DNA from: an uncultured Lachnospiraceae bacterium
Lineage (GTDB): Bacteria > Bacillota > Clostridia > Lachnospirales > Lachnospiraceae
Direction of reading: 5' to 3'
DNA: 64,000 nucleotides
Assembly (NCBI GenBank): GCA_900319245.1
Contig: ONNQ01000001.1
Location: 99,594 to 163,593 of the forward strand
Each line of letters begins with the position of its first letter. Positions within the stretch are counted from its first letter, which is position 1. Positions 11,768 through 39,285 of the stretch are shown here, piece after piece. The notes under the pieces were generated by a model that saw only the letters and a program-made list of their open reading frames with translations, had not been told where the DNA came from and searched no databases. Position numbers and translations under genes: made by a program.

Positions 11768-11813
11768 GCCGGCGTTGTCAAAATAGTGTATATGGGTGGA
11801 GGTAATAGCAAAA

Positions 11814-18037: not shown

Positions 18038-18039
18038 GT

Positions 18040-19251: not shown

Positions 19252-19535
19252 CCCTGCATGTAGGTTACGCCCATCTCACCATAGGGATGGTTCCAGCTCT
19301 TTACAACTTTGCCGCCGGATACAACACGGCATGTGCCGCACTCAAGGCAGCCTTCATGATTGAATGCCAGCTCGCCGTTCTCATATTTGTAGAGCTCGGC
19401 AGGGCAGGCGAGGACGACCTTACGGATCTCTTCCTCATCTTTAAAATCGCTGTTGATCTCGATGTGGGCATATCCCTCGTCGGTATGGAAAACATTATAG
19501 CCCAGCTTATCATCTACCGGTACTTTTTTTGCCAT
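19248..19535 (-). CDS. fixX: FixX-like ferredoxin
   Basis: 95 residues. Cys residues occur in VLACPAELY (near 44) and in CLECGTCRVV (near 62), the FixX pattern that binds one [4Fe-4S] cluster. FixX is the small partner of FixC, passing electrons from the flavoprotein toward quinone or another acceptor. AAGGAGG precedes the start and the FixC-like gene lies 24 bp upstream. Confidence 0.88.
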   Translation of the reverse strand: MAKKVPVDDKLGYNVFHTDEGYAHIEINSDFKDEEEIRKVVLACPAELYKYENGELAFNHEGCLECGTCRVVSGGKVVKSWNHPYGEMGVTYMQG

Positions 19536-19559
19536 TATCTTATACCTCCTTCCGGTCTC

Positions 19560-20852: not shown

Positions 20853-20947
20853 ATTTACCAAAACCTCCTTGCGTGGTTCGTTCGTCGGTTCTTTGGGCCG
20901 CGCCTGCGGGCAGGCTGTGATGCGGCCGTTATGGAATCATTAAGGTT

Positions 20948-21742: not shown

Positions 21743-21764
21743 ATACGCCTCATCAGTTGTATGT

Positions 21765-22718: not shown

Positions 22719-22757
22719 AGTAACTTTTTATCTAACTATTAATTCGCGGACAGGCTG

Positions 22758-23720
22758 TCAGACCTGGGCGCATTTTCTCACTATTTTGCCAAGTTCGGCA
22801 GACGCCGCATTGGCGGGAAGCATCTTAAGGATCTCTTCACACCGCTTGCGGTAACGCAGGATCTCCTTTTTGGTGTTCTCTACGCCGCCGTACTTGTGTA
22901 CAATGGTTTCCATTTTTTTGATCTGTTCACAGTCCGTCTGTCCGTCGCGGTTTCTTCTCATGATGGGAAGAAGCTGCTCTCTTGCAAGGGGATCCCGCAT
23001 GGCCATCAGAACCGGCATGGTGTAAATGCCGTCCCGGAAGTCCTTGTGGGTCTCTTTGCCAAGCACCTCTTTATCTGTCGTGAAATCCAGCAGGTCGTCC
23101 CTGAACTGGAACATGCAGCCGAGCGATTCTCCGAGCCTGTCGAGCTGTTCGATCACCTCTTTGCTGCAGCCGCTCTCGAGAGCGCCGATCCGGCAGGAGG
23201 CACGAAAGAGTGCTGTGGTCTTGCCGCGAATGTTGCACAGATACTCCTGCATTGTGACGTCTTCGCGGTAGCGGCATCTTGCCTGCCCGATCTCGCCGGC
23301 GCACATTTGCTGGATCGCATCCGCCAGGAGCATCCCTGCCTCATGCAGGTTTTCCTGCGCCTGATAATACTGGACGCGAGCGATGAGATAATCGCCTGCA
23401 TAGACGGCGGCATCTTTGCCGAATCGCCGCTGCACCGATTCCCGGTCCCTTCGAAAAGGGGCTTCATCCACGATGTCGTCGTGAATGAGGGAAGCCAGGT
23501 GCGTGACCTCCATCATGGCGGCCAGAAGCGTCAGGCGGTTCTTGTGCGCGAGGCAATTGGGACCGTAAAGTGAACATAGGATCAAAAGTATCGGACGGAT
23601 CCGCTTGCCTTTCGAACAGGCCGCCCAGTCCAGCACATCCCCGACCGGCGTTCCGGCGTAGGGATGCGCGCTGATCCGAGCGATGTCGGACTCGACGCTG
23701 TCCATCCAGTCACTGATCAT
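22758..23720 (-). CDS. polyprenyl diphosphate synthase (heptaprenyl-type)
   Basis: 320 residues from ATG 23720, with GGAGG at 23726-23730. The first Asp-rich motif is LIHDDIVDEAPFRR (near residue 85), the second FQFRDDLLDFTTDK (near 210); GKRIRPIL near residue 40 is the usual IPP-binding Lys/Arg box. It makes the isoprenoid side chain for menaquinone. The chain length cannot be given without modelling the residues ahead of the first motif. Position ahead of menA supports the quinone role. Confidence 0.88.
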   Translation of the reverse strand: MISDWMDSVESDIARISAHPYAGTPVGDVLDWAACSKGKRIRPILLILCSLYGPNCLAHKNRLTLLAAMMEVTHLASLIHDDIVDEAPFRRDRESVQRRFGKDAAVYAGDYLIARVQYYQAQENLHEAGMLLADAIQQMCAGEIGQARCRYREDVTMQEYLCNIRGKTTALFRASCRIGALESGCSKEVIEQLDRLGESLGCMFQFRDDLLDFTTDKEVLGKETHKDFRDGIYTMPVLMAMRDPLAREQLLPIMRRNRDGQTDCEQIKKMETIVHKYGGVENTKKEILRYRKRCEEILKMLPANAASAELGKIVRKCAQV

Positions 23721-23762
23721 GTTTTCCTCCATGTCTTAGCGCATTGCGCGCAGACATCTGTA

Positions 23763-25922
23763 TTACATAAGGCCTCTCTTCTCGGCGATGATGACAGCAG
23801 TGTGCTTGACGTCGATCGGAATATCTCTCGCGTCAAGACCGCCGCTGATCTGCATCATGCAGCCGGGGCAGTCGACAGCTACGGTGTCCGCGCCGGTCTC
23901 TTTGATGTGTTCAACCTTGCGCTCGAGGATCGGCGCCGCGACCTCAGGGAACTTGATACTGTAGGTTCCGCCGAATCCGCAGCAGTTATCGCTTTCCTTC
24001 ATCTCGGTGAGATGGACGCCCTTGGTGTGTGTGAGCAGCTCTCTCTGCTCCTTGAACACGCCCATGGATCTCTTGAGGTGGCAGGAATCGTGATAGGTGA
24101 TATTGAGTTCTTTTCCGTCGCCCTCGTCGGAGAGACCGCCGAGCATATGGAACAGCTTGCAGAAGTCGTAGCTCTTCTCGCCGAGCTCTTTGGCCTTGGC
24201 CAGCATCTCGGGATCATCCTGGAAGAACTGCTCGTACTCTCTGATCTGATGTGTGCAGGTAGGGCATGCGGAAACGATATAATCGTAGTTCTCGGCAGCC
24301 ATTGCGTTGATATTGAGCTCCGCCGTCTTCTTGGCGTTTTCTCTGTCGCCCATGTAGGTGGCAGGCGCGCCGCAGCAGGACTGACCCATGGGCATATCTA
24401 CAACATAGCCGATGGAGTTGAGGTCCTTGATCACCGCCTTTGCGATGTCCACATAGACAAAGTCGAGGAGGCATCCGGTGAAGATCGCGATCTTGCCCTT
24501 AGGATTGGGAACATCCTGCTCAATGGTCGGGAAAATATCCCTGAAAGGAACCTGGGCGATCTTGGGAAGGCTTCTGCCTTCAGACAGACCGGACAGGAAC
24601 ATAGGCAGGTGACGCATCATGGGCTGGCCCTGCTTCATGAATGCGGGCTGTGCAACCGATGCAATACGGAGCATGGAGTGGAAGAGTTTTCTGTCGCTGA
24701 CCGCATCCAGTGCGAACTTATAGGTCGGGTTCGGATGCTTCTCCATGCTGCGCTCACGCAGCTTCATGATCATTTCCGGAATGTGCAGGCCGCCGCCGCA
24801 GACCTCTTTACATCTGCCGCACTGCAGGCAGATATTCTGGATCTGTTCTGCGCGCTCTTCGGATACCAGGAAGTGGCTCAGCAGCGTGCCGATACCGCCG
24901 GTATAGACTTTACTGCCGTATACATGGCCGCCAAGGAGTGCGAAGGCGGGACATACGTCAAGACATGCGCCGCAGCGGATGCAGTCGAAAATCTCACGGA
25001 ACGACTCGTCCTTGAGGATCTCGCGTCTTCCCGGATCATCCAGGATCACGCAGTAGAAGTCTTTCTGGCCCTTCTCATCGGTATCCTTGTCAAGACAGAC
25101 TTCCGTGGAACCGGTGTACAGGGACAGATAGGCGGTCAGTCTCTGCGCCGTGCCGTTGCGGGGGAGCGCTTTGAAAATATAGCGGGCATCGGTCAGGCTC
25201 TTGACGAACTTCTCGATACCGAATACGTACAGATGGATCTTGGGAAGGGTGCCGACCATACGGCCGTTTCCTTCGTTGGTCATGGTAAAGACTGTGCCGG
25301 TCTCTGCAACAGCGACGTTGGCGCCGGATACGCCCATGTCCGCATGGGTGAATTTGTCACGCATGACCTTGCGGGCGGTCTTTACTTCTTCTGAAATGAT
25401 CGGCTTATTTTCAACCTTTGTATAATCGGTAAACAGATCCGCAACCTGCTCTTTATTCAGATGCAGAGCGGGCATAACCATGTGTACAGGCGTGTTGCCT
25501 TCCAGCGCGATGATGAATTCACCGAGGTCTGTCTCCTGCACGAGAACGCCGTCGTCGCCGAGGATCTTGTTCATATGGATCTCTTCTGACGCCATTGATT
25601 TGGATTTGACGATGGTCTGTACGCCTTTTTCCTTAACAAGGCCGCGAATGTATTCGATTGCGTCGTCTGCGCTGGTCGCATGGAAGACGTGACCGCCGCG
25701 AGCGGTGCAGTTCTTCGTAAACTCATCGATCATCTCGTCGATATGATCCGCAGCATACCCTTTTACTCTGCGGATGTTTTCACGCGTCTCTTCAAAATCG
25801 ACGCCTTCATATGATTTGAGTCTTCTCTCGGGATATGTCTCGCAGAACGTGCCGAGTGTTCTGCCAAGCGTTTTATTATTGAGAGCAGACTTGATTTCCT
25901 GCTTCAAAGCTTCATTTGCCAT
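23763..25922 (-). CDS. LutB-LutA fusion: lactate oxidation iron-sulfur protein
   Basis: 719 residues. The N-terminal half is a LutB-like LUD domain (about 60-290, with VKSKSMASEEIHMN and GVSGANVAVAETGTV) followed by two cluster motifs, CIRCGACLDVCPAF (near 317) and CLQCGRCKEVC (near 370). The C-terminal half has two cysteine-rich CCG domains like LutA/GlpC: SCCGAPATYMGD (near 515) and NCCGFGGTYS (near 655), with HDSCHLKRSMG and CPGCMMQI. Separate LutA and LutB are the usual arrangement, so this is a fusion. With LutC it oxidises L-lactate to pyruvate. AAAGGAGG precedes the start. Confidence 0.87.
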   Translation of the reverse strand: MANEALKQEIKSALNNKTLGRTLGTFCETYPERRLKSYEGVDFEETRENIRRVKGYAADHIDEMIDEFTKNCTARGGHVFHATSADDAIEYIRGLVKEKGVQTIVKSKSMASEEIHMNKILGDDGVLVQETDLGEFIIALEGNTPVHMVMPALHLNKEQVADLFTDYTKVENKPIISEEVKTARKVMRDKFTHADMGVSGANVAVAETGTVFTMTNEGNGRMVGTLPKIHLYVFGIEKFVKSLTDARYIFKALPRNGTAQRLTAYLSLYTGSTEVCLDKDTDEKGQKDFYCVILDDPGRREILKDESFREIFDCIRCGACLDVCPAFALLGGHVYGSKVYTGGIGTLLSHFLVSEERAEQIQNICLQCGRCKEVCGGGLHIPEMIMKLRERSMEKHPNPTYKFALDAVSDRKLFHSMLRIASVAQPAFMKQGQPMMRHLPMFLSGLSEGRSLPKIAQVPFRDIFPTIEQDVPNPKGKIAIFTGCLLDFVYVDIAKAVIKDLNSIGYVVDMPMGQSCCGAPATYMGDRENAKKTAELNINAMAAENYDYIVSACPTCTHQIREYEQFFQDDPEMLAKAKELGEKSYDFCKLFHMLGGLSDEGDGKELNITYHDSCHLKRSMGVFKEQRELLTHTKGVHLTEMKESDNCCGFGGTYSIKFPEVAAPILERKVEHIKETGADTVAVDCPGCMMQISGGLDARDIPIDVKHTAVIIAEKRGLM

Positions 25923-25962
25923 TCTGCTTCCTCCTTTCCTCTTTTCAATCAGGCATCTTTCG

Positions 25963-26511
25963 TTATACGTCGTTAATGACGACGACCGAAAGCTTCAGGG
26001 GACCATGTACGCCGACGGTGCTGACACATTCGATATCAGCTGTACGGCTGGGCCCTGTGACAAAGCCGACGAAAGCCGGAAGGGTTTCAAGTGAACAGAG
26101 TTTGTCGAACATGGCGTCATAATCGTCGACCATTTCCGACAGCTTGACGACGCCGATGCAGTATTCGGGCATAGTGGCAACGATTCTATTGTCGATGTCA
26201 TCACCCAGCTGCACAATACTCCCCAGATCGGCAATCGCACACTGTGCTTCCAGCACACCTCCCTTAGCGGTCTCTGCATGTAACCGGATGTGGTCGGTAT
26301 ACACTTTCATGCCGGCATCAGCAAGAGCCTTCGCAAGACCGATCTCTTCAAGAAGCGGTGATTCTGCGATGCACACGGAATCAATTCCTGCCTCTTTATA
26401 GGCCTCTGCGATAATGCCTGCGGCATCAGCCTTGTCGGCCAGCCAGCTGTTCCCATTGACTGCCTGCAGATTCTTTTCGAACCGCTCATACAGTACATTT
26501 ACAGCTCCCAT
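25963..26511 (-). CDS. lutC: LutC-like LUD domain protein
   Basis: 182 residues, a single LUD domain. VCIAESPLLEEIGLA near residue 60, YTDHIRLHAETAKGG near 72 and FVGFVTGPSRTADIECVSTV near 145 are typical; the GPSRTADIE box is characteristic of LutC/YkgG. It is the first gene of the operon, 80 bp or so from a well-spaced promoter. It forms the lactate dehydrogenase complex with the fusion protein that follows. Confidence 0.88.
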   Translation of the reverse strand: MGAVNVLYERFEKNLQAVNGNSWLADKADAAGIIAEAYKEAGIDSVCIAESPLLEEIGLAKALADAGMKVYTDHIRLHAETAKGGVLEAQCAIADLGSIVQLGDDIDNRIVATMPEYCIGVVKLSEMVDDYDAMFDKLCSLETLPAFVGFVTGPSRTADIECVSTVGVHGPLKLSVVVINDV

Positions 26512-26750: not shown

Positions 26751-26784
26751 AAAAAAAGCAGAGCCACCTGTAAATGGCTCTGCT
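26751..26784 (-). terminator. terminator of the ACP-thioesterase operon
   Basis: Minus strand: a 10-bp stem (26775-26784 with 26757-26766) followed by a T run (complement of 26751-26757), 44 bp after the thioesterase stop. Confidence 0.75.
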
Positions 26785-26827
26785 CAATACACGTATATAT
26801 GGGGCGCTCCACAGTGATTACAAGGGG

Positions 26828-27541
26828 TCAGCCACCAAACTGGAACTCTATTCTAAACACCGGCTTATCCTTTTCACCGTAAATCGTAAAAGCATTTTCC
26901 GTGGCTGTGCAGCCCACCGTCACCACATCGCCGAGCTGTGCCTCCCCGATATGCTCTGCGGTGAGCGAGGAGAGAGCGCGGCAGCGAAGCGTGTCAGGCA
27001 TCCGGTCCACGGCCAGATCATAGTAGCGGGCGTTGTTCATATGCCCGTTGAGATCGACGCAGCTATAGGGGACAAGGAAGTCGGAGACGGTATCGGCCGC
27101 CGATTTTCGCAGCCGCCCGGGAAGCGGCAGCTCATTGCCGGTGACAACTTCCTTAATATAGATGTCATGCTCCTCCGGAAAGACGATCCCGCGGGTCTTA
27201 TTGTCGATCAACACCCATAGAGACGCGGCGTCGAGCAGTACTCGGCCCCTCGTATCCACAAGGCGGAAATAGCGGGGAAAGTACAGATGCATTGTCTTGC
27301 CGGGCCAGGACAAAAGCGTGACCGTTTCATCATACGCCGGCATGCGGTGAAACTTCACCCGGTATTGCGTCACAGCCCACAAAAGCCCCTGGTCCAGCGT
27401 CTTGTCCCTTGTGACGCCTAGTTCGATGGTGTGGGCGATGGCTGCTTCCTGCAGGCGCGTAAAGAGCGCGGACAGGCGCAGCCTTTGCGACATGTCCACA
27501 TCACTGGAGAGGACCTGAAAGTCTTGTCTGTATATACTCAT
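26828..27541 (-). CDS. acyl-ACP thioesterase
   Basis: 237 residues from ATG 27541, preceded by AAGGAG; longer versions start in non-homologous sequence. Two hot-dog folds are visible: the first with VDMSQRLRLSALFTRLQEAA, the second with SCVDLNGHMNNARYYDLAVD near residue 160, which holds the conserved Asn-His pair of acyl-ACP thioesterases. It releases free fatty acids from acyl carrier protein. It follows an ACP gene and an acyl-activating ligase, so it likely belongs to the same lipid cluster. Confidence 0.85.
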   Translation of the reverse strand: MSIYRQDFQVLSSDVDMSQRLRLSALFTRLQEAAIAHTIELGVTRDKTLDQGLLWAVTQYRVKFHRMPAYDETVTLLSWPGKTMHLYFPRYFRLVDTRGRVLLDAASLWVLIDNKTRGIVFPEEHDIYIKEVVTGNELPLPGRLRKSAADTVSDFLVPYSCVDLNGHMNNARYYDLAVDRMPDTLRCRALSSLTAEHIGEAQLGDVVTVGCTATENAFTIYGEKDKPVFRIEFQFGG

Positions 27542-27634
27542 GGCAGCTCCTTTACAACACGGCGGAAACAGACGTCGCCAAAATATCGATGCCTGGCGAC
27601 TCATACGCAGGTCCGGGCATCGTACGTGCAACGT

Positions 27635-27889
27635 TTAGAATTTGCGATTGATTCGCTTCTCGAAGGCGTTCACAACATCCCCAAAGGTGGACATCCTGGA
27701 CCACTGCCGCTGGGGGATCTTAACGTCAAACCTCGCTTCGAGGCGGCAGATGATCAGCGTAAAGCCCATAGAATCGATCGCGGTATCTGTATTGATGACG
27801 GTATCTTCATAAATCGGCGTGCCTTCCATATCGGGCACACATTCATAAATCACTTCTCTGCAGGTTTCTGCAATCTGATTTCTATCCAT
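27635..27889 (-). CDS. acyl carrier protein
   Basis: 84 residues with the phosphopantetheine attachment motif DSMGFT (Ser near residue 40). It is a dedicated carrier rather than the main fatty-acid-synthesis ACP: it is shorter in acidic residues than typical AcpP and ends in a basic tail (FEKRINRKF). GGAACG lies weakly upstream. It has its own promoter (27935-27963) and sits between the ligase and the thioesterase. Confidence 0.83.
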   Translation of the reverse strand: MDRNQIAETCREVIYECVPDMEGTPIYEDTVINTDTAIDSMGFTLIICRLEARFDVKIPQRQWSRMSTFGDVVNAFEKRINRKF

Positions 27890-27934
27890 GTTGAAACGTT
27901 CCTTTCAAAAAAAGGTAATTATATTGTTGCGTCC

Positions 27935-27963
27935 ATTATATCCGCAATTATCAATTCTGTCAT
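27935..27963 (-). promoter_or_regulatory. promoter ahead of the acyl carrier protein gene
   Basis: Minus strand: ATGACA (27958-27963), a 17-bp spacer, TATAAT (27935-27940), 45 bp from the start codon. It would allow ACP and thioesterase expression independent of the ligase. Confidence 0.6.
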
Positions 27964-27997
27964 CCTTGCGCAATTACAGCGCTATCGAGTGCACCCG

Positions 27998-29557
27998 TCA
28001 GCAGCGTGAAAGCTCCCACCGCTTTATTTTGCCGGTCGCAGTACGCGGCAGCGTCTTACCCGTAAACAGAACCGCACTGATCTGCTGTCCGCGGGGGAGG
28101 CTTGCCATGATCGGACGGATCGCGCCAAGGACCAGGGCGCGCGCCTTGTCCGCAGCAGGGCTGCCCGGCTCTGCCGAGGCCGCCTCGGGATCGACGAGCA
28201 GAAGGACCGGCCGTCCATCCCTTTCAAGAACCGCAAAGTCCCGTCCCGGCAGCACAACGGCGATGCGCGCTTCGTACTCGGGAAGAAAGAGCTTGGTGCC
28301 GTCATGGAGGACCAGGATCTCTTTCTTGCGCCCGATGATGTGGAGACGCCCGTTGTCATCCCACCGGCCCAGGTCGCCGGTATAGAGGACGCCATCCCGC
28401 AGGACAGCGGCTGTATCCTCAGGCTCCTTGTAATAGCCTTTCATCATACAGCTCTCTCCGGTGACGAGAATCTCGCCGTCTTCAGCCAGCACAACGGCAT
28501 TCTCAGGGCAGATTTCCAGCGCATAGGGGTCAAAAGACTGCTCGCATTCGGAGGAACCTTGCACCATGGCCGCATCGCTATTACAGTCAGCCTCCGTATG
28601 GCTGACAGGATTGACACGATACGCCGGCGGCACGCTGATCGCGACGCCGGAACTGGTCTCTGTCAGACCATACCCGAAACTGACGGAAATGCCTCTGGCC
28701 GCAGCCGCCGCAAGGAGCGCCTTCGGGCAGTCGCCGGCTCCGACCAGAACCAGCTGCAAATCGGGATTCATAAGATCGTGCTGCAGCAAAAATCCCAGCA
28801 GCATGGGAACGGCAGACAGCACAGTCGGCCTGTAAAAAGACAGGTCCTGTGTATAATAGCGGGCGCCCCGTCCGAGCGCTACAGCGGCGCCGCATTGTAA
28901 GCCCCATAGAAGTCCGCAGACGAAGCCGAATACGTGATGGAGGGGCAGCATGCACAGAAGCGTATCGCCCGAAGAGAGCGGCAGCATACAGCTTCCGTTA
29001 TAGGCGGCGGCCATGAGACTTTGGTCTGTCAGGACAACCGCTTTAGAGCTGGAGGTCGTACCGGACGTAAAGAAGAGAATGGGGTGCGCATCGGACGCTC
29101 CGTCCTGTGCGGGAACCGGCGCCACCCCTCCGGCGTGAGTAAGCCCATCCGTCAAACAGGGCTGCAGCTCCTCGATGAGGTCCTCGTCGCTTCCCCAGAG
29201 GCAGTCGATATCGGTCTGTTTGATCTGTGCAGCCAGAAGGTCTTCGTCGGTGTTTTCATCCAGAAGGACAACCTGCATGCCGGCCAGCACAGCCGCGAAG
29301 ATGGTCAGGACACATGAGAGGGATCCGTCGCACAGAACGCCCAGGCAGGTGCCTGTACCGAACGCTTCGGGAAGCTCGTCCCTGCGTGCCAGCACGGCGC
29401 CGGCAAAGGCACCCCTGCTGAGAGAAGCGACTTCCCCGCTCTTTTCATAAAGGAAAGCCGTCCGGGCAGGATCATCACCCCAAAAGGCGTCTAGAAGATC
29501 CATGAAGCCGTTATATTTGACCTGCTTTTTTCGCTTATCCGCTCTCTCTGTACGCAT
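27998..29557 (-). CDS. AMP-forming acyl-CoA/acyl-ACP ligase
   Basis: 519 residues from ATG 29557 (GGAGG upstream). The adenylation motif is ILFFTSGTTSSSKAVVLT (near 155), followed by FGYGLTETSSGVAI (near 300), YTGDLGRWDDNGRLHIIGRK (near 405) and a C-terminal Lys in LPRTATGKIKRWEL. It activates a carboxylic acid, probably a fatty acid, as an acyl-adenylate and transfers it to CoA or to the nearby acyl carrier protein. Its promoter region is shared divergently with the fatty acid isomerase gene. Confidence 0.82.
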   Translation of the reverse strand: MRTERADKRKKQVKYNGFMDLLDAFWGDDPARTAFLYEKSGEVASLSRGAFAGAVLARRDELPEAFGTGTCLGVLCDGSLSCVLTIFAAVLAGMQVVLLDENTDEDLLAAQIKQTDIDCLWGSDEDLIEELQPCLTDGLTHAGGVAPVPAQDGASDAHPILFFTSGTTSSSKAVVLTDQSLMAAAYNGSCMLPLSSGDTLLCMLPLHHVFGFVCGLLWGLQCGAAVALGRGARYYTQDLSFYRPTVLSAVPMLLGFLLQHDLMNPDLQLVLVGAGDCPKALLAAAAARGISVSFGYGLTETSSGVAISVPPAYRVNPVSHTEADCNSDAAMVQGSSECEQSFDPYALEICPENAVVLAEDGEILVTGESCMMKGYYKEPEDTAAVLRDGVLYTGDLGRWDDNGRLHIIGRKKEILVLHDGTKLFLPEYEARIAVVLPGRDFAVLERDGRPVLLLVDPEAASAEPGSPAADKARALVLGAIRPIMASLPRGQQISAVLFTGKTLPRTATGKIKRWELSRC

Positions 29558-29605
29558 ACTACACCGCCTCCTAAGATTAGTTTGCGGGTCTTTCATCCAT
29601 CCTTT

Positions 29606-29622
29606 TTCAGTATAGCATTTAC
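29606..29622 (-). promoter_or_regulatory. candidate extended -10 for the acyl ligase gene
   Basis: On the minus strand TGCTATACT is a TGn-extended -10 about 60 bp ahead of the ligase start. No good -35 is seen. The 243-bp divergent region otherwise holds only a 10-bp palindrome AGTGTATACT near 29718. Confidence 0.4.
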
Positions 29623-29800
29623 AGCCTGGCAGAGCATGGAAAGATGCGAAAAAGAATGGTACTTTGGCCCTTTTACGAGGCAGTGTAGAGCGACTTCCTG
29701 ATTCATTTTCGGGGTGGATAGTGTATACTGGATACAGAGGTTTTTCTTTCATTAACAAAGGAAACGCATAATTACACTAATAATGTCAGGGGAGGCAACC

Positions 29801-31195
29801 ATGGACAAAAACGTGAAGATCTGTATTATCGGCGGAGGCCCCGCGGGCCTTTCAGCGGGTATGTATCTGGAGCAGAAGGGTTATGAAAACTACACGATCC
29901 TTGAGAAGAACGACCGTGTCGGCGGAAAGTGCTGGTCTCCGCATTACAACGGCCGCCGCTATGAGATGGGCGCCATCATGGGCGTTCCGTCCTACTACGC
30001 GGTACACGATGTCGAGGAGTTCTGCGGCATCACGCACGACGGCCCGCAGCTGAACCGCAACTACAAGAACAGACTGGGCCAGGTCATCGAGCCCTTCGAG
30101 CCCAAGAAGAACATCCGCAAGATCCCTCGTCTTCTCAAGATGAAGAGACAGCTCAAGAAATTCGGCGAGCTCCTCGAGACCAAGTATAAGGGATACGATA
30201 TCAACGGTCACCGCGGCGTAGCGGAGGGACGTTACGAGGGCTTCTCCGCAGCCAGTGCCAAAAGAGAGCCTGTCAGCGGCGTCAATCCCAACCTCAAGGA
30301 CCTGGCGCTTCCTTTTAAGAAGTTCTGCGAGATCAACGGCGTTGAGCTGGTGCAGGACATCTGGATTGGACCCTTTACGTCGTTTGGCTATGGCTATTTT
30401 GACGAGATCCCGGCTGCATACGTTCTCAAGTATCTGGATTTCCAGACCTGCATGAACTTCGTCAAGATCAATCTGTGGACCTGGAAGAACGGCACCCAGT
30501 TTATCTGGGAGTCCCTCAACGAGCACCTCAAGAACCCGGCCCGCCTGAACAGCAGGATCGACAAGGTTGAGAGAAAAGACGGCAAAGTGTATGTGACCGT
30601 GAACGGCGAAGTGGAAGAGTATGACAAGATCATCGTCACCTCGCCTCTGTATGTGCCGCAGAAAGAGAATCGTGACGACGGACTGGTCGGCATGGTGGAC
30701 TATTTTGACGCACGCGAGGATGAGAAGAAGCTGTTCTGCCAGATTGAGTACGAGCGCTACGACGTACTGGCGGTGGAGACCAAGCCGGAAGATCATCCCG
30801 AGATCTCCTACTACGTATTCGACAACATGATCCCCAAGAGACTGGGCCATCTTATGGTCTACTATCGCCGCTGGAGAGATACGGTGGATCAGGTCATCAC
30901 GACCTATGCGCTGCGCAAGCATAAGAGATCCGAGGAGGTCCCTTACGACAAGTGCCGCAAGATGGTCCTGAAGGACCTGGACACCATGGGCAACCCCGCT
31001 TCCAACGTGGTCAACGAGTGGAGCGTCTACTACTTCCCGCATGTCTTCACCAACGCTTACAAGGACGGCTGGTATGACAAGGTCGAGGCGATGCAGGGCA
31101 AGTATGACACCTACTATGCGGGCGAGATCATGAGCTTTGGCGATATGGACGAGACCTGCGAGTACTCCCGCGAACTGGTCGAGAGATTCTTCTGA
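29801..31195 (+). CDS. polyenoic fatty acid isomerase (PAI-like, FAD-dependent)
   Basis: 464 residues from ATG 29801 (GGAGG 5 bases before). Resembles the Cutibacterium acnes polyenoic fatty acid isomerase along most of its length, as I recall that protein: the FAD motif IIGGGPAGLSAGMYLEQKG, then VGGKCWSPHYNGRRYEMGAI, GPFTSFGYGYFDEIPAAYVL near residue 200, LKYLDFQTCMNF, and a C-terminal YYAGEIMSFGDMDETCEYSR. The known enzyme turns linoleate into a conjugated (trans-10, cis-12) isomer using FAD without net redox change. An extra segment of about 35 residues lies near residue 135. It leads an apparent operon with two redox proteins. Confidence 0.82.
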   Translation: MDKNVKICIIGGGPAGLSAGMYLEQKGYENYTILEKNDRVGGKCWSPHYNGRRYEMGAIMGVPSYYAVHDVEEFCGITHDGPQLNRNYKNRLGQVIEPFEPKKNIRKIPRLLKMKRQLKKFGELLETKYKGYDINGHRGVAEGRYEGFSAASAKREPVSGVNPNLKDLALPFKKFCEINGVELVQDIWIGPFTSFGYGYFDEIPAAYVLKYLDFQTCMNFVKINLWTWKNGTQFIWESLNEHLKNPARLNSRIDKVERKDGKVYVTVNGEVEEYDKIIVTSPLYVPQKENRDDGLVGMVDYFDAREDEKKLFCQIEYERYDVLAVETKPEDHPEISYYVFDNMIPKRLGHLMVYYRRWRDTVDQVITTYALRKHKRSEEVPYDKCRKMVLKDLDTMGNPASNVVNEWSVYYFPHVFTNAYKDGWYDKVEAMQGKYDTYYAGEIMSFGDMDETCEYSRELVERFF

Positions 31196-31283
31196 TTCCG
31201 GAAGGTCATAGGAGAAAGCTTATCATCGCGACTTCGCGGATGGGATCGGAAAGAATCCCTATCACAGTTTGAGGATAACAGAC

Positions 31284-32819
31284 ATGAAATTTTATAAAGA
31301 TCATTATGATGTGATCGTGATCGGAGGGGCCCTGGCGGGCCTCTCCTCAGCGCTTATGCTGGCGGACAAGGGACTGGACGTGCTGGTCCTGGAGCGCCAC
31401 AACCTGCCCGGCGGCATTGCCACGAGCTTTGTCCGCGGCGGGATTGAGATCGAAGCGGCGCTGCACGAGATGATGTCCATTGGACCCAAGGAGAATCGGC
31501 TGAAGGTCGGCAAATTCTTCGATGACATGGGCGTCGATATAGATTGGCTGCCGGTGCCGGAGTGCTACCACGCAAGCCTTCCCGGCCTGGAAGTGACCCT
31601 GCATCCCGGGCTCGAGACATTCTCCCGGGAGATCGACGAGCAGGTGCCGGGCACCTATGACCAGGTATTGAAGCTGTTGCAGCTCTGCAATACCGTATTT
31701 GACAGCGTGAATGAGTTGTCCATTCATCCCATGAGCAAGGCCCAGATGCTGCTCAAGCATGAGGCCTTTGTCAAAACAGCGGGCTATTCTACCAAAGAGG
31801 TTCTGGACACCTTCCATCTGCCGCAGAAGGCGCTGGACCTGCTGGCCCCCTATTGGATCTACGTTGGCAGCGGCTTCTCCGACCTGCCCTTTACGATCTA
31901 CTCCGTGCTGATGGCGGACTACGTGGGATACGGTTCCATGATCCCCAAAAAGCTCAGTCATGAGATGAGCCTCAAAATGGCGGAGCGCGCCGAAGAGATG
32001 GGCGTGCAGATCGAGTACCGCCAGCATGTGGACAAGATCCTTGTGAAGAACGGCAGAGCGTATGGCGTGCGCACAGCGCGCGGCGACGAGATTCATGCGG
32101 ACTATGTGATCTCCTCGGCCTATCCCAACAAGGTCTACACGAGCATGATCGAGCCCCTCAGCGAAGTGCCTGCGGGCGCCACAAAGATGGTCAATGGCAG
32201 ACGTCTGTCGCTGACGGCCTTTTCCGTGATCCTGATCCTGGACAAGCCGGCGGAAGAGCTGAATATCAAGGACTACAGCATTTTCCGCGGCGACACAATG
32301 GATACAGACGTGCTGTATGAGAATCTGGCTGGCCTTGGGCCCTACAGGTATCTCACCTGCATCTGCCACAATTACGGCAATCCCGGCGTGACACCGGAAG
32401 GAACATGTTCCTTCAGTGTGACGGTTCTTCCCCGTGTGGACGGCTGGAAGACGGTCAAGGCAGAGGATTATGATCGCGTCAAGCACGAAGTGGCAAAGCA
32501 GTTGATTGACGATATGTCGGACTATTTTGGCGTCAATCTCCTGGACCATGTGCTGGAATGCGTTATCGAGACGCCTATGACCATCGCACACTACACAGGC
32601 GCGTGGAATGGCTGCATCTACGGCTATGCGCACACCATGGAGGACCACATCGTCGCGAGACTGCAGACGGCAGAGGAAGAGAAGTTCATCGACCGGCTGG
32701 AATTTGCGGGTGCCCACGCCATTTCCGGAGACGGCATGGGACCGGCCGTGACCAATGGCCGCAAAGCCGCCAAAAACGTGCTGGATGACATCGCTGCAAG
32801 AAAGGAGGCCAAACGATGA
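31284..32819 (+). CDS. phytoene desaturase / retinol saturase-like flavoprotein
   Basis: 511 residues from ATG 31284. The FAD motif is VIVIGGALAGLSSALMLADK and is followed by LERHNLPGGIATSFVRGG, the standard start of the COG1233 family. A C-terminal FAD contact is GAHAISGDGMGPAVTNGRKA. Family members desaturate, isomerise or saturate conjugated polyenes. Between the isomerase and a reductase, the likely role is reduction of a conjugated double bond, but that is inference. The stop overlaps the next start by 4 bases (ATGA). Confidence 0.78.
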   Translation: MKFYKDHYDVIVIGGALAGLSSALMLADKGLDVLVLERHNLPGGIATSFVRGGIEIEAALHEMMSIGPKENRLKVGKFFDDMGVDIDWLPVPECYHASLPGLEVTLHPGLETFSREIDEQVPGTYDQVLKLLQLCNTVFDSVNELSIHPMSKAQMLLKHEAFVKTAGYSTKEVLDTFHLPQKALDLLAPYWIYVGSGFSDLPFTIYSVLMADYVGYGSMIPKKLSHEMSLKMAERAEEMGVQIEYRQHVDKILVKNGRAYGVRTARGDEIHADYVISSAYPNKVYTSMIEPLSEVPAGATKMVNGRRLSLTAFSVILILDKPAEELNIKDYSIFRGDTMDTDVLYENLAGLGPYRYLTCICHNYGNPGVTPEGTCSFSVTVLPRVDGWKTVKAEDYDRVKHEVAKQLIDDMSDYFGVNLLDHVLECVIETPMTIAHYTGAWNGCIYGYAHTMEDHIVARLQTAEEEKFIDRLEFAGAHAISGDGMGPAVTNGRKAAKNVLDDIAARKEAKR

Positions 32820-34030
32820 AAGTGAAGAATTTCCTGAAAGACGTCGGCGGAGCCTCCCGCGTCACCAAAGCGCGCCTTGCGGCGTTCGCATCAGCATCTC
32901 CCGCGCTGGAGAGCACAGACCCCATCGGAGATGTATCCCGCGAGTGGCATCCCGGACCGATCGAGCTCGTTGTGACCAGGATCACGCCTGCCTGCAAGAC
33001 GGCCAAGACCATTCGCTTCGAGCGCACCGACGGCAAGAAGCTGCCCTTCTTCTATGCGGGACAGTATATTGTTCTGGATTTCAAGATCGGTGAAAGCCTG
33101 ATCTCCAGGCCCTATTCCATCTCTTCGGCCCCTTATGAGGCGAGAGCGGCCTATGCGGACGGAGAATCCGACGAGCATCCCTTTGTGGAGATCACTGTCA
33201 GAAGATCCAAGGGCGACGGCTTTATCTGCGATTATGTCAATGATAGCCTGAAGGTCGGCGATGTTTTGACAGGAACCATGGGACTGGGGCAGTTCTACTA
33301 TGAGCCGCTGCGCGATGCAAAGCATGTCGTGGCGCTGGCCGGCGGCGTCGGCATCACGCCCTTTGCCTCTATGGCCAAGGAAGTGGTGAACGGAACGCTG
33401 GACATCGACCTGACGATTCTCTATGGATCCGTTTCTTCGGACGATATAGTCATGAAGGAGGAGCTGGATGCACTGGATGGAGCCAGCGACAAGCTGCATA
33501 TCGTGCATGTTCTGAGTGGGAACGAGCCCGGCTGGACCGGAGAGAAGGGATTTTTGACAGCTGAACTGATCCGCAAGTATTCGGCGGAAGATACCAGCTA
33601 TTTCATCTGCGGACCGCAGGTTATGTACAAATTCCTGCGGGAGGAAGTGGCCAAACTGGATGTGCCTGCAAGGCGCGTGCGCTTTGAGGTCTTCGGGCAG
33701 GCCAAGGACATTGCCGTATATGAGGGATTCCCGACAGAACTGCGGGACAAGACCTTCATGCTCACCGTAGTGCGTGGCATCAGTGAAGTACAGATTCCCG
33801 CAAAGGCGACGGAGAGCATCGTCGTGGCACTGGAGCGCGCCGGGATCCGGATCGAGACCGGCTGCAGGAGCGGCGAGTGCGGATTCTGCAGGACCAAGGT
33901 CCTCGCGGGCAACTACTTTGTGTGCCCCGAGGGAGATGGCAGGAGAGAGGCGGATAAAGACTTCAATTACGTGCACGCATGTGCGGCGTATCCGCTGTCA
34001 GATATGAAGATCAAGATTCCGATTCTATAG
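32816..34030 (+). CDS. NAD(P)H:ferredoxin-type reductase with C-terminal 2Fe-2S domain
   Basis: 404 residues. About 50 N-terminal residues without clear family are followed by an FAD-binding FR-type domain (YAGQYIVLDFKIG, then SRPYSISSAP near residue 95), an NAD(P)-binding domain (ALAGGVGITPFASMAKEV near 175; FICGPQVMYKFL near 263) and a plant-type 2Fe-2S domain with CRSGECGFCRTK near 345 and a final Cys in YVHACAAYP. It passes electrons from NAD(P)H through FAD to the 2Fe-2S cluster. AGGAGG lies upstream, and it overlaps the saturase-like gene, so it is its probable electron donor. Confidence 0.85.
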   Translation: MKVKNFLKDVGGASRVTKARLAAFASASPALESTDPIGDVSREWHPGPIELVVTRITPACKTAKTIRFERTDGKKLPFFYAGQYIVLDFKIGESLISRPYSISSAPYEARAAYADGESDEHPFVEITVRRSKGDGFICDYVNDSLKVGDVLTGTMGLGQFYYEPLRDAKHVVALAGGVGITPFASMAKEVVNGTLDIDLTILYGSVSSDDIVMKEELDALDGASDKLHIVHVLSGNEPGWTGEKGFLTAELIRKYSAEDTSYFICGPQVMYKFLREEVAKLDVPARRVRFEVFGQAKDIAVYEGFPTELRDKTFMLTVVRGISEVQIPAKATESIVVALERAGIRIETGCRSGECGFCRTKVLAGNYFVCPEGDGRREADKDFNYVHACAAYPLSDMKIKIPIL

Positions 34031-34125: not shown

Positions 34126-36294
34126 ATGGCAGTGGAAAGAATGCCGGATTTTAATGAGATCAAAAATCTAATCGGGAATCTGGAGAAACTGGATCAAAGT
34201 TTCAGGAAAATCACCACTGAGTATGACGGACATGCGGAGAAGCTGCGCACGGAATTAGCGGAGGCGCTCAAGAAAGAGTCTGCACATTTTCTGGTGGAAA
34301 TCCCGGTGGAGGAACTCAAAAATTCCAAGGCGGGGATTAGGACAGGACTACTGGAAAGCGTGGGATACCGCACGCTCTACGATCTCTATACGGCATCGGA
34401 CTGGAAACTACAGAATATTGAGGGAATCGGAGAAAAGCAGATCGCGTCGATCCGAAGTATTCTGTCAGAATTTCTGGTACGCCTCAGCACACGTGCCAGA
34501 ATCCGGCTGACGATGGACCGGGATGACGTGCAGAGAAGGAAGCTGATCCATCGGATTGCGAAATTCAGAAAAGTCGAGCAGATTCGGAGAGAGGCTGAGC
34601 CGATTACAGAAGACGTGCACGAGGACATCATGGGGCTGACAGAGTCGGTGATGATCCGGAGTCGGCTTCACTGGATTTTCTCCTTCGGAAACACCAAGAG
34701 AGAGACAATCCGGGCAGTGGGTGAAATTTTGGCCTATTGTAATGGTGAACGGTATAACCTGGTCAAAAGTCTTGTCTCCCAATACGGGATGGCTCTTGCG
34801 ATGAACGAAGACGAAGCGCTGGCGGATTTTAAGAAGAACAGCGCTTCTTACTATGCCATCATTGAGCGCCTGACAGGCGTCGGCACACAGCAAAAGCTCC
34901 TGTACAGCAGTATCTCCTCTGAGCTGGCTGAACAGATCAATTCGTTTGCACTGGACTTGGGGGGATTCAAGGGCGACCTTCGCGCCTATCAGGAGTTCGG
35001 GACCAAGTATATTTTGGCCATGAAGCGAGTTCTGCTGGGAGATGAGATGGGACTTGGCAAGACGATTCAGGCTATTGCGGCGATGACGCACATTTACAGA
35101 GAGCAAGAGTTTGCCCGCTTTTTGGTGGTATGCCCGGCCTCGGTCATGATCAACTGGTGCCGTGAGATCCAGAAATTCAGCGATCTTCCTGTCAATCTCC
35201 TGCACGGGCCCCATTTGGAGGACGAGTTCCTGAGCTGGCGTGAGCTGGGCGGCGCCGCTGTTACTAATTATGAGAGCATGGGCAAAATAGTGGATAGGAT
35301 CGACGGGCAGATGTCCCTTTCCATGCTGGTCATTGACGAGGCACATTACATCAAGAATCCGGAGGCGAAGAGAACGCAGTATATCCACATGCTGGAGGAC
35401 GAGTCAGAGAGGATCCTTCTGATGACTGGCACACCCTTGGAGAATAGGGTTGATGAAATGTGTGAATTGATCGGCTTTGTGCGGCCGGATCTTGTGGAGA
35501 CGGTGCGAGCCAACGCAGGCATGCGCCATGTGCCGCAGTTTAAAGAAATGCTTGCGCCGGTCTATCTGAGAAGGCAGCGCGACATGGTCCTGGAGGAACT
35601 CCCCCCGATCACCGAGCAGGAGGAATGGTGCGAGATGACGGCAGAGGACCGCGTAGAATACGGTGCGCAGGTCTTGGCAGGCAGTTTTCCTGGGATGCGT
35701 CGCGTCGCGTTTTTACAAAAAAATTTGTCGAGCTCTTCCAAGGCGGTTCGCCTCGCAGAATTGTGTGCACAGGCGCGGGACGAGGGCAGAAAGGTGCTGA
35801 TCTACTCCTACTTCAGAGATACGATCCAGAAAGTATGCGATTTCCTCGGTGACTGTGTTATAGGATCGATCACCGGAAGTGTTCCGGCAGTAGAGAGACA
35901 GAACCTGGTCGACAGATTTTCGGACGGCCCGGATGGAAGCGTTTTGGTATGTCAGGTCCAGTCAGGCGGAACAGGCCTCAATATACAGGCAGCAGCTGTC
36001 GTGATTTTCTGCGAGCCACAAATCAAACCTTCACTCACTTGGCAGGCAATATCCAGGGCCTATCGAATGGGACAAGTGCAGAGTGTTCTTGTTTATCATC
36101 TCTTATGCGAAGACACAGTAGACGAAGCGGTGCGCGGGATTTTGGTTTCGAAACAAGCAGAATTCGATCTCTTCGCGCAGGATTCGGCGATGGCGGAGGC
36201 AGCGGACGGCCTCGCAGATCAGGAGTGGATCAGGCAGGTCGTAGAGAGGGAGCGCAGGAAGTACCTGCCGGCTGTTATTTCTGAAGACCTGTAA
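34126..36294 (+). CDS. SNF2/RapA-family DNA-dependent ATPase (helicase-like)
   Basis: 722 residues. An N-terminal region (1-290) with a helix-hairpin-helix-like segment (LQNIEGIGEKQIASIRSIL near residue 95) precedes the SNF2 ATPase. Motif I is LLGDEMGLGKTIQAIAAM (near 305), Ia VVCPASVMINWCRE, II VIDEAHYIKNP (near 405), III LLMTGTPLENRVDEM, V LVCQVQSGGTGLNIQAA and VI AISRAYRMGQVQSVLVYHLL. It probably translocates on duplex DNA. Such single genes in Clostridia are often of unknown role; no methylase or nuclease is adjacent to make it part of a defence system. Confidence 0.87.
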   Translation: MAVERMPDFNEIKNLIGNLEKLDQSFRKITTEYDGHAEKLRTELAEALKKESAHFLVEIPVEELKNSKAGIRTGLLESVGYRTLYDLYTASDWKLQNIEGIGEKQIASIRSILSEFLVRLSTRARIRLTMDRDDVQRRKLIHRIAKFRKVEQIRREAEPITEDVHEDIMGLTESVMIRSRLHWIFSFGNTKRETIRAVGEILAYCNGERYNLVKSLVSQYGMALAMNEDEALADFKKNSASYYAIIERLTGVGTQQKLLYSSISSELAEQINSFALDLGGFKGDLRAYQEFGTKYILAMKRVLLGDEMGLGKTIQAIAAMTHIYREQEFARFLVVCPASVMINWCREIQKFSDLPVNLLHGPHLEDEFLSWRELGGAAVTNYESMGKIVDRIDGQMSLSMLVIDEAHYIKNPEAKRTQYIHMLEDESERILLMTGTPLENRVDEMCELIGFVRPDLVETVRANAGMRHVPQFKEMLAPVYLRRQRDMVLEELPPITEQEEWCEMTAEDRVEYGAQVLAGSFPGMRRVAFLQKNLSSSSKAVRLAELCAQARDEGRKVLIYSYFRDTIQKVCDFLGDCVIGSITGSVPAVERQNLVDRFSDGPDGSVLVCQVQSGGTGLNIQAAAVVIFCEPQIKPSLTWQAISRAYRMGQVQSVLVYHLLCEDTVDEAVRGILVSKQAEFDLFAQDSAMAEAADGLADQEWIRQVVERERRKYLPAVISEDL

Positions 36295-36353: not shown

Positions 36354-39212
36354 TTACTGCTCCGTCGGATAATCTGATTTTCCGGTCACTTTTCTCTTGA
36401 GGATCTTAAATCCGCGCTTCAGCGCATAGGGGCCGACGCACTTGATCATTTCTTCCGCAGTGTGCATATCCGCCGCATGCGGAATGTCGCGGGACAGATG
36501 GATGGCATCGAATTCGCAGCGTGTGGTGCACAGGCCGCAGCCGATGCACTGGTTGAGGTCGACGACAGTAGCGCCGCACTTGAGACAGCGGTTCGCTTCT
36601 ACCTTGACTTGCTCTTCGGTGAGAGGCATGCGAAGGTCGCGGAAGGTTTCTGAGGCCTTGCCAGGCTTGAGGCCGGGCGCCTGCCGGCTTGCGTTGTCGT
36701 AGGAATCAATGCGGATGTCGTCGCGATCCAGCTCAATGAACTCGCGTCTATCGCGTCCGATGGTGAGAGACTGACCGGGATGGACGAAGCGATTGATGGA
36801 GACCATGCCCTGCTTGCCGTCTGCGATTGCATCGATGGCAAAGCGTGCGCCGTGGTAGATATCGCCGCCAACGAAGATATCGGGTTCATCCGTCTGGAAT
36901 GTGACCGGATCTGCGATGGCCGTCCCGCCCCTGCGCAGGTGGACCTTGGAGCCCTTGAGGAGGTCACCCCACTGTGCAGACTGTCCGATGGCCATCAAAA
37001 CATTGCCGCAAGGGATGGTGATCGTCTCCTCCTCGTCATAGACAGGCGCAAAGCGATGCTCCTTGTCGTAGACGGACACACATTTCTTGAAGACAATGGC
37101 AGTGACTTTGCCGTTCTCGGAGAGCACCTCCTTGGGTCCCCATCCGTTCATGATGGTGATGCCTTCTTCCTCCACTTCCGCGATCTCGTCTTTGGCAGCG
37201 GGCATCTCGTCCCTGGACTCCAGACAGAGCATGGTGACCTTGCCATTTGTGACGCGCAGCGCCGTGCGAGCCACGTCTGCCGCGACATTGCCGCCGCCGA
37301 CAACGACGACGTCGCCGTCAAGCTTCACGGTAGGATCCTGATTCGCCTTTCGCAGAAAATCGACGCCTGTGATGACGCCCTCTGCTTCTTCGCCGGGGAC
37401 ACCGGCAAGGCGGCCGCCCTGCAGACCAATGGCAACATAGAAGGCCTTGAAGCCGCGGGCGCGGAGGTCGTCAAGCGTGACGTCTTTGCCGACGTCTACG
37501 CCGCACTCAATCTTAGCACCCATCTTCTCGATGATCTCGATCTCCGCTTCCACAATATCCTTCTCCAGGCGGAAGGACGGGATTCCGTTCATGAGCATGC
37601 CGCCGGGGCGCTTCTCGCGCTCGAAGACGGTGACCGGATATCCTTCTGTGCGCAGGTAATACGCTGCGGAAAGACCTGCGGGTCCCGCACCGATGACCGC
37701 AATGGGGTAGTCGTCCCACTGCTTGCCTTCGCCGTTCTCGCAGAGCGGCAGATACTGCGCAAGGGCTTCGGAGAGGCCTTCACTGCCGCCTTCAGCTGCT
37801 TTTTGTACCAGATCCAGCTCACGGAGAGCCAGAAACTTCTTGATCTCGTCGATGGCAACAGGCGCGTCCACAAGGCCGCGCGTGCAGCGGTCCTCACAGC
37901 GGCGGTTGCAGATGGCTCCGCATACTGCCGGGAAGGGATTGTCCTGGCGAATGAGCTTCAGCGCCTCCTGATAGCGGCCCTCTGCCGCCATCCTGATATA
38001 GCCCTGTACAGCCAGATGCGCGGGACATGCCGTCTTGCAGGGTGACGTACCCGTGTCATAGCAGTTGATCTTGTTGTGGTCGCGGTAATCGGGATCCCAT
38101 TTGTCCTCGCCCCAGATGTGGTCGTCGGGCAGCTCGTGCATGGGATATTTCACCTTGCTGCCATCTGCCTTACAGAGCTTCTGGCCCAACCTTGCCGCGC
38201 CGGCAGGACATACTTCGACACACTTGCCGCATGCGACACATTTGGCCGGATCCACATGCGCACGGTAGGCGCTGCGGGACATGTTGGGCGTGTTAAAGAG
38301 CTGCGAGGTGCGCAGTCCGTAGCAGCTGCCGGGAGAGCAGTTGCAGATACCGACAATGCGGTTGGGACCGTCCAGATTGGTGATCTGGTGGACGTAACCC
38401 TTTCTCTCAGCGCGCTCCAGGATTTCTTTCACTTCGTCTCTGGATACGTACTTGGCATCCTTGCCGGAGGTCACAAGAAACTCCGCGATATCGCCGACGC
38501 CGATGCACATGTGTCCCTCGATATCGCCGACGCCCTCGCCGCGGATGCGCTGTGCCTTGCGGCAGGCGCAGACCATTGTGCAGAAGGTGTCATATTTGTC
38601 GAGCCAGTGGGAGAGATGCTCCACGCTGACAGAAGTGGATGCGGTGTCGATGGCCTTCTCCACGGGAATGACATGCATGCCGATACCGGCTCCGCCGGGC
38701 GGAACCAGTTTGGCGGCCAGCTCCAATGGCTCCTGGGGAGCCAGATTGAACATGGTGGCAACTTCGGGATACTTGTCTGCCAAAGTCTTGTGCTCGACCA
38801 TGTATTCGCCGGACCCCACGACCCACTTGGGCACCAGATACTGGATGTGATGGTCTTCGTTGTCTCTGTTTTGCTCCAAAATACCGATCCACAGCAGGTG
38901 GTCGATGATCTTCTGCGCCTTCTTTTCGCTGATATTGTTGCGGGCCGCCAGTTCGGCGGTCGTAAGGCCCACGCGGCGCTTTTTGAAGCTGAGCAGGAAG
39001 GCGACCTCACGCTTGGTCAGCAGGCGGTCCAAAATCCAGAAATCCATATGGTTTTCATGCATGCCGCCGGGCAGCTTTCTGGGAATGTTGTCCGTGATCA
39101 TGCGGGCCAGCTTCATCACCATCTTTCTTTTGACGGGATCGTCGCAGTGGTAGTCCTGTATCGGAAAGTCTCGTTCATTGACGTGAATTCTCGGGTTTAC
39201 TTCTTTGGGCAT
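36354..39212 (-). CDS. multi-domain NAD(P)H-dependent flavo-iron-sulfur oxidoreductase (paralogue)
   Basis: 952 residues from ATG 39212 (GAGGAG 8 bases before); the GTG at 39221 lies in the Shine-Dalgarno. Same architecture as the 933-residue protein at 11814: winged-helix-like region (LTKREVAFLLSFKKRR), CACRKAQ and CNCSPGSC module, CVACGKCVEVCPAG, CKTACPAHLAVQGY, CGAICNRRCEDRCTRG, FAD motif GAGPAGLSAAYYL, NAD(P) motif VVVGGGNVAADVART, and C-terminal CIGCGLCTTRCEF. It differs by an insertion of about 15 residues near residue 470 between the GltD-type Fe-S domain and the FAD domain. Unlike the first copy it stands alone, with no hypA. Acceptor unknown. Confidence 0.82.
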   Translation of the reverse strand: MPKEVNPRIHVNERDFPIQDYHCDDPVKRKMVMKLARMITDNIPRKLPGGMHENHMDFWILDRLLTKREVAFLLSFKKRRVGLTTAELAARNNISEKKAQKIIDHLLWIGILEQNRDNEDHHIQYLVPKWVVGSGEYMVEHKTLADKYPEVATMFNLAPQEPLELAAKLVPPGGAGIGMHVIPVEKAIDTASTSVSVEHLSHWLDKYDTFCTMVCACRKAQRIRGEGVGDIEGHMCIGVGDIAEFLVTSGKDAKYVSRDEVKEILERAERKGYVHQITNLDGPNRIVGICNCSPGSCYGLRTSQLFNTPNMSRSAYRAHVDPAKCVACGKCVEVCPAGAARLGQKLCKADGSKVKYPMHELPDDHIWGEDKWDPDYRDHNKINCYDTGTSPCKTACPAHLAVQGYIRMAAEGRYQEALKLIRQDNPFPAVCGAICNRRCEDRCTRGLVDAPVAIDEIKKFLALRELDLVQKAAEGGSEGLSEALAQYLPLCENGEGKQWDDYPIAVIGAGPAGLSAAYYLRTEGYPVTVFEREKRPGGMLMNGIPSFRLEKDIVEAEIEIIEKMGAKIECGVDVGKDVTLDDLRARGFKAFYVAIGLQGGRLAGVPGEEAEGVITGVDFLRKANQDPTVKLDGDVVVVGGGNVAADVARTALRVTNGKVTMLCLESRDEMPAAKDEIAEVEEEGITIMNGWGPKEVLSENGKVTAIVFKKCVSVYDKEHRFAPVYDEEETITIPCGNVLMAIGQSAQWGDLLKGSKVHLRRGGTAIADPVTFQTDEPDIFVGGDIYHGARFAIDAIADGKQGMVSINRFVHPGQSLTIGRDRREFIELDRDDIRIDSYDNASRQAPGLKPGKASETFRDLRMPLTEEQVKVEANRCLKCGATVVDLNQCIGCGLCTTRCEFDAIHLSRDIPHAADMHTAEEMIKCVGPYALKRGFKILKRKVTGKSDYPTEQ

Positions 39213-39285
39213 TGCGGTCACTCCTCATTATTGTGTAAAATGTACCATACCTTATTTTACCATAGCAGCAGTGCGGGAGGATGAG

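Follow-up and report, generated by a model that had tools for sequence, protein, structure and literature searches.

A divergent six-gene locus

The subject of this analysis is a candidate cluster for the isomerisation and reduction of unsaturated fatty acids, located in a stretch of 64,000 nucleotides (here called the window) from an uncultured Lachnospiraceae bacterium (assembly GCA_900319245.1, contig ONNQ01000001.1, positions 99,594 to 163,593). Six intact open frames were found at window positions 26828-27631(-), 27635-27889(-), 27998-29758(-), 29783-31195(+), 31269-32819(+) and 32816-34030(+). Judging from ribosome-binding sites and alignments with relatives, the likely true starts are 27541 for the thioesterase (TE), 29557 for the ligase (LIG), 29801 for the isomerase homologue (PAI) and 31284 for the flavoprotein (RETSAT). 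TE, the acyl carrier protein (ACP) and LIG form one arm, divergent from PAI, RETSAT and the reductase (FNR). The first-pass annotation had described this divergent set of six genes and an overlap of the flavoprotein and reductase genes; all of the frames were intact where it placed them, their families were assigned by Pfam and NCBIfam, and the overlap amounts to 4 bases (32816-32819). It had overlooked a GltD-like gene at 36354-39221(-). The features are as follows.

26756-26785, - strand: terminator-like hairpin 3' of TE, 13-pair stem followed by a T-run (scan only, in which the region did not exceed shuffles in its number of terminator-like sites)
26828-27541, - strand: TE, FatA/FatB-type acyl-ACP thioesterase (PF01643, 3.5e-23; PF20791, 8.9e-10); AAGGAG precedes the start
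27635-27889, - strand: ACP, acyl carrier protein with a DSM phosphopantetheine site (NCBIfam ACP, 5.7e-9)
27935-27963, - strand: promoter-like ATGACA-17-TATAAT 5' of ACP, 11/12 consensus matches (scan only)
27998-29557, - strand: LIG, AMP-forming acyl ligase that may be an acyl-ACP synthetase (PF00501, AMP-binding, 6.2e-36); AGGAGG precedes 29557
29558-29800, no strand: intergenic region separating the divergently oriented LIG and PAI, with probable promoters (gene-start coordinates)
29801-31195, + strand: PAI, fatty acid isomerase homologue (PDB 2b9w, 7.2e-133)
31284-32819, + strand: RETSAT, CrtI/CRTISO/retinol-saturase-like flavoprotein, proposed conjugated-acid reductase (TIGR02730, 1.3e-29; TIGR02734, 6.3e-28)
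32816-34030, + strand: FNR, NAD(P)H-FAD-2Fe-2S reductase, proposed to supply RETSAT with electrons (PF00175, PF00111, PF00970)
36354-39221, - strand: GltD-like 4Fe-4S NAD(P)H oxidoreductase, a frequently linked seventh gene (Pfam, NCBIfam)

The identity of PAI, which the first reading had called PAI-like, proved secure. Residues 7-470 of the open frame matched residues 3-423 of the P. acnes chain 2b9w in two stretches and over essentially the full length (7.2e-133); each of the remaining 36 solved sequences listed had its best stretch within residues 9-79, at the FAD-binding end. In the window protein, the counterparts of R88 and F193, the substrate-gate residues of the P. acnes enzyme, are R86 and F220, and both are invariant in the six aligned sequences, including that of the window. 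Because of this full-length homology and the conservation of R88 and F193, it is very likely that the window PAI isomerises fatty acids. The P. acnes enzyme has been shown to convert linoleate (PMC2885616), and by analogy with it the product of the window enzyme would most likely be of the trans-10,cis-12 type.

RETSAT matched the superfamily of CrtI, CRTISO and retinol saturase (COG1233) in sequence, over the full length, and in fold. The protein falls below the curated equivalog cut-offs for carotenoid isomerase (TIGR02730, 103.5 against 586.9 bits) and for phytoene desaturase (crtI_fam, TIGR02734, 97.7 against 238.1 bits). The solved structure nearest to its predicted model (mean pLDDT 87.9) was the gamma-carotene desaturase 4rep, with a TM-score of 0.81 by query and 0.85 by target at 18% identity. 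FNR contains FAD, NAD and 2Fe-2S domains, and its cluster cysteines C350, C355, C358 and C389 are invariant in 14 aligned sequences. Its architecture is of the PaaE/BenC type, yet it scores under the PaaE and BenC equivalog cut-offs.

On the opposite arm, both hotdog domains were found in TE, for which the best PDB match was 2own; D163, N165 and H167 of its DxNGH motif are invariant in 12 aligned sequences, the Asn and His being presumably catalytic. The D39-S40 phosphopantetheine site of ACP is invariant in 15 aligned sequences, and the NCBIfam score of this protein is under the curated cut-off. In LIG, the FTSGT motif and the lysine of PRTxxGK are invariant in 13 aligned sequences. Its profile ranks MenE/4CL-type ligases first, and AasS (8hsy) matched at 1.7e-23. 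A MenE function was rejected from the gene context and a score below the cut-off. The adjacency of ACP does no more than suggest that LIG may be an acyl-ACP synthetase, with transfer of the acyl chain to ACP and not to CoA.

Conservation of the genes among relatives

Scanning the species genomes identified 470 relatives; the analysis covers the best 80 of them and leaves out the other 390, and in these 80 named loci PAI was 83-98% identical. The counts refer to evaluable loci, that is, those not cut by contig ends, and are taken over related loci that are not independent. RETSAT was found 3' of PAI on the same strand in 77/77 loci, and FNR in 71/71. LIG was present in 69/73, ACP in 67/71 and TE in 61/63. 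The 4-base overlap of RETSAT and FNR was seen in 48 of the 72 named loci measured. Gene order was maintained while RETSAT fell to 56% and LIG to 36% identity, and the median identity in the named loci was 49% for LIG against 84% for PAI. The GltD-like gene was near PAI in 41 of 49 evaluable loci and lay downstream on the same strand in 34 of these 49, unlike in the window.

A link with the gut bacteria of ruminants (cattle, sheep, goats), overlooked in the first-pass annotation, was apparent from the titles of the 80 locus records. A ruminant host is named in 28 (27 with the organ), 33 are labelled RUG, which we take to mean rumen uncultured genome, and 19 have neither. The names given by the submitters include Lachnospiraceae, Oscillospiraceae/Ruminococcaceae, unspecified Clostridia and two Sphaerochaetaceae bins.

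The same genes were followed at three taxonomic levels. Six of 200 genomes of the family, the own genome included, carried PAI, and PAI-RETSAT-FNR was present in three of the five others: G130, G043, with the complete divergent six-gene layout of the window, and G109, where PAI-RETSAT-FNR-LIG-ACP-TE are consecutive on one strand. The hypergeometric probability of the co-occurrence of PAI and RETSAT in this sample ranged from 1.2e-6 when the five closer RETSAT genomes are counted to 7.9e-6 when all seven are, with kinship ignored. PAI was found in 3/391 genomes of the class sample; all six genes, in the same divergent layout, are present in G448, which belongs to a different family of the class. 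In the genus of the window, PAI was present in 20/61 genomes (E 1e-30) and RETSAT in 17/61 (E 1e-100), all 17 being PAI carriers; the three carriers without RETSAT (G618, G638 and G639) have only a second form of the enzyme, PAI type B. TE was detected in 18/61 genomes of the genus (E 1e-15), namely 16 of the 17 RETSAT genomes, G597 and, weakly, G638. In G585, the RETSAT genome without a TE match, PAI lies 1,966 bases from the contig end. Linkage of these genes beyond chance was confirmed, and conservation of the six in Lachnospiraceae, which the first reading had proposed to check, was borne out as strong co-conservation in the named loci, the family and the genus.

PAI type B is 46-60% identical, and in six loci it was found with an adjoining GltD and no RETSAT. 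In G408 a PAI of 30% identity also lies close to GltD, and G069 and G081 have PAI and the GltD-like gene without RETSAT. The loci of this second clade near GltD and without RETSAT are L012, L013, L130, L131, L132, L133 (30%) and L135; L012, L013 and L133 also contain frames that we take to be HypA/HypB-like. The second PAI clade with GltD is possibly a different reductase arrangement. In a PAI tree of 63 rows type B was set apart, the family labels of the submitters were partly mixed, many forks were open and several branches were long; no gene transfer is claimed from this tree, which includes the Sphaerochaetaceae bins L070 and L078, possibly misbinned. The role of GltD as a cluster-specific reductase was weakened by the breadth of its family, found in 39/200 family genomes at E 1e-150, and by a second copy of this 4Fe-4S oxidoreductase in the window (11796-14615(+), 64% identical to the copy at 36354-39221).

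RETSAT and FNR also occur together outside the cluster. Distant RETSATs (29-31%) followed by FNR were found in G048 and G113, genomes without a PAI hit, and G075 has two closer RETSATs without PAI, one followed by FNR (L103:9029-13875 and L104:9255-12050 are the two loci) and the other beside GltD, with HypA/HypB-like frames next to the latter. Since FNR stands 3' of RETSATs in genomes without a PAI hit as well, the pair is a wider electron-fed module.

The acyl arm and the PAI core are also separable, as LIG-ACP-TE occurs without PAI in G597, and LIG is missing in 4/73 evaluable named loci and in G130. The four named loci (L023, L079, L081 and L092, with a PAI of type A) have no LIG or ACP despite the presence of the upstream flank, and in G130 PAI-RETSAT-FNR stands without LIG, ACP and TE in a stretch of 19.9 kb. 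The G597 trio (L164:6392-8944, 35-39% identical) lies near genes that look like polysaccharide synthesis, with no PAI or RETSAT in the stretch.

Proposed pathway and alternative explanations

On balance, the locus is probably a biohydrogenation cluster of ruminant-gut bacteria, in which PAI would conjugate the double bonds, RETSAT and FNR would reduce one of them, and LIG, ACP and TE would handle the acyl chain. PAI would bind a free polyunsaturated fatty acid (linoleate, and probably linolenate too) and shift one of its double bonds so that a conjugated system results. NAD(P)H could give electrons to the FAD of FNR, from which they would pass to its 2Fe-2S centre and on to the FAD of RETSAT, and RETSAT would hydrogenate one bond of the conjugated diene to give a trans-monoene such as trans-10 18:1; electron feeding by FNR fits RETSAT as a reductase. 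LIG is predicted to load the acid onto the dedicated ACP, and TE to release it. Because LIG and TE alone would be futile and would only burn ATP, an intermediate step, most simply the reduction, may act on acyl-ACP, with the reductase as the candidate. The GltD-like protein is a possible auxiliary supplier of electrons. Such a pathway would serve to detoxify polyunsaturated acids, to dispose of electrons, or both. More tentatively, the cluster may be the genetic basis of the rumen trans-10 branch in uncultured Lachnospiraceae and Oscillospiraceae, leading from linoleate through trans-10,cis-12 conjugated linoleic acid (CLA) to trans-10 18:1 by means of a CrtI-type flavoprotein that has an NAD(P)H reductase of its own and works on a dedicated ACP. 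The first-pass interpretation is therefore partly supported as a whole: strongly in the linkage and the isomerase, while we infer the reduction and the carrier step.

Several of the observations weigh against the biohydrogenation reading: type B PAI with GltD in place and no RETSAT, RETSAT without PAI in G075, the trio without PAI in G597, the absence of LIG and ACP from four type-A loci and of the whole trio from G130, and the resulting separability of the two parts. The choice of the best 80 of 470 relatives tells in the same direction, as does the behaviour of CRTISO described below. Separability bears on the possibility that PAI, RETSAT and FNR isomerise and reduce the free acid, LIG-ACP-TE being a neighbouring activation or salvage module through which leftover acids would go to the membrane and unwanted chains would be trimmed. 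The trio without PAI in G597 and the core without trio members in G130, L023, L079, L081 and L092 speak for this, and the P. acnes PAI has reportedly been crystallised with free fatty acids. However, LIG, ACP and TE are kept beside PAI at the frequencies given above despite their faster divergence, and in G109 the trio follows immediately after FNR in the same orientation; we consider this explanation rather unlikely. A serious rival to RETSAT as a reductase is a CRTISO-type non-redox isomerase, dependent on reduced FAD, which FNR would keep reduced; geometric isomers of conjugated acids would be formed with no net hydrogenation. The best NCBIfam match of RETSAT is indeed the carotenoid isomerase TIGR02730, slightly above crtI_fam. 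The reaction of CRTISO is non-redox yet requires reduced FAD, and CRTI with reduced FAD isomerises prolycopene (PMC3382138). Both TIGR02730 and TIGR02734 score so far under their cut-offs that neither label is secure, and an FNR that is always adjacent (71/71) would better suit stoichiometric use of electrons than catalytic priming. A purely isomerising RETSAT appears improbable.

The cluster might also act on some other unsaturated lipid, or build an unusual acyl lipid, and not process dietary polyunsaturated acids. ACP and thioesterase are usual in biosynthesis, and quinone genes (UbiA, UbiE/MenG and polyprenyl synthase) lie next door in the window. Nevertheless, UbiA and polyprenyl synthase were beside PAI in 0/85 other loci, PAI is related over its full length to an enzyme that converts linoleate (PMC2885616), and ruminant or RUG labels were borne by 61/80 named loci, linoleate and linolenate being main substrates of rumen bacteria (PMC10019597). 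Moreover, phytoene/squalene synthase (SQS_PSY, PF00494) was found in 0/18 carrier genomes, comprising the own genome and 17 others (8 of these 17 with a completeness of at least 90%), in a search that gave matches in 7/14 control genomes. The co-occurrence with carotenoid synthesis that the first reading had named as its refutation was thus not seen, a carotenoid-pathway reading has no support, and action on another lipid is the least probable of these alternatives.

Neighbouring genes and relation to known systems

Next to TE, at lower window coordinates, a row at 15244-26511(-) encodes a lactate permease, two ArsA-type ATPases, a FixC/geranylgeranyl-reductase-like flavoprotein, UbiE/MenG, UbiA, a polyprenyl synthase, the quinone-linked L-lactate dehydrogenase LdhH and a LUD protein, and is read as a putative lactate-to-quinone gene row beside the cluster. 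As a unit conserved with the cluster it was rejected, since 0/85 other loci contained LdhH, LUD, UbiA or polyprenyl synthase at 60 bits. On the other side, an SNF2-type helicase (34126-36294(+)) stands between FNR and the inverted GltD-like gene. Additionally, at 55841-62869 a + strand open frame of 2342 residues overlaps several - strand frames.

The first reading had also set the route apart from the hydratase route of lactobacilli. This held for the own genome, a bin 87% complete, where the oleate hydratase MCRA (PF06100) was not found in a search that matched 4/14 controls, 1 of them over the cut-off. It did not hold for all carriers: among the 17 others, MCRA exceeded the cut-off in G043, and in G636 a weak match stayed below the threshold. 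Since G043 carries both the cluster and MCRA, the two routes are not mutually exclusive. The neighbours of the cluster in G043 include a choloylglycine-hydrolase-like and a flavin reductase-rubredoxin-like frame (L010:5474-6448 and 13740-14570), as judged from their sequence motifs.

No description of a PAI-RETSAT-FNR-LIG-ACP-TE cluster was found in the literature searched, a scope that excluded most subscription papers; biohydrogenation and PAI are known, and the gene system joining both appears to be undescribed there. The bacteria that form trans-10 intermediates have been called unclear, C. acnes being the sole producer of 28 cultured strains tested (PMC7339423). The trans-10 shift leads to milk fat depression, and the Eubacterium coprostanoligenes group, Muribaculaceae and the Lachnospiraceae NK3A20 group have been pointed to in connection with these intermediates (PMC9853040). 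The shifting and saturation of double bonds in dietary polyunsaturated fat shapes milk fat, and the genes for it have so far been difficult to identify. A compact and clearly bounded gene set, present in many ruminant-gut genomes, opens the trans-10 producers and the reductase to cloning and assay, and gives metagenome studies further marker genes in addition to the isomerase.

In a survey of rumen metagenome-assembled genomes, PAI homologues were found in 7/228 (2 Lachnospiraceae, 1 Oscillospiraceae and 4 unclassified; PMC10019597). The isomerase family is the same as here; lipase and isomerase genes were scored, and in the accessible main text of that survey the word "reductase" occurs 0 times and no gene cluster is mentioned. 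The CLA reductase of Butyrivibrio fibrisolvens (Hughes 1982; Fukuda 2007) shares the proposed reaction, in which a conjugated C18 acid is reduced with NADH-derived electrons, whereas it belongs to the trans-11 pathway. A sequence of the Butyrivibrio reductase exists (Fukuda 2007, via PMC4478896 and PMC2654759), but the enzyme is in no family database and so is not searchable in genomes (PMC4478896). The hydratase route of lactobacilli (CLA-HY/DH/DC/ER; PMC13365329) likewise ends in the saturation of linoleate-derived intermediates, but passes through hydroxy and oxo acids and involves MCRA. With CrtI phytoene desaturase, CRTISO and retinol saturase, RETSAT has in common the full-length family match and the fold; it differs in its NAD(P)H-2Fe-2S reductase partner and in its low identity to 4rep (18%). 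Finally, the PAI of P. acnes (Cutibacterium acnes; 2b9w) is a full-length FAD isomerase homologue in which the kept residues R88 and F193 have their counterparts, but it has 424 residues against 464 in the window protein, the gene for which is embedded in a reductase/acyl-carrier cluster.

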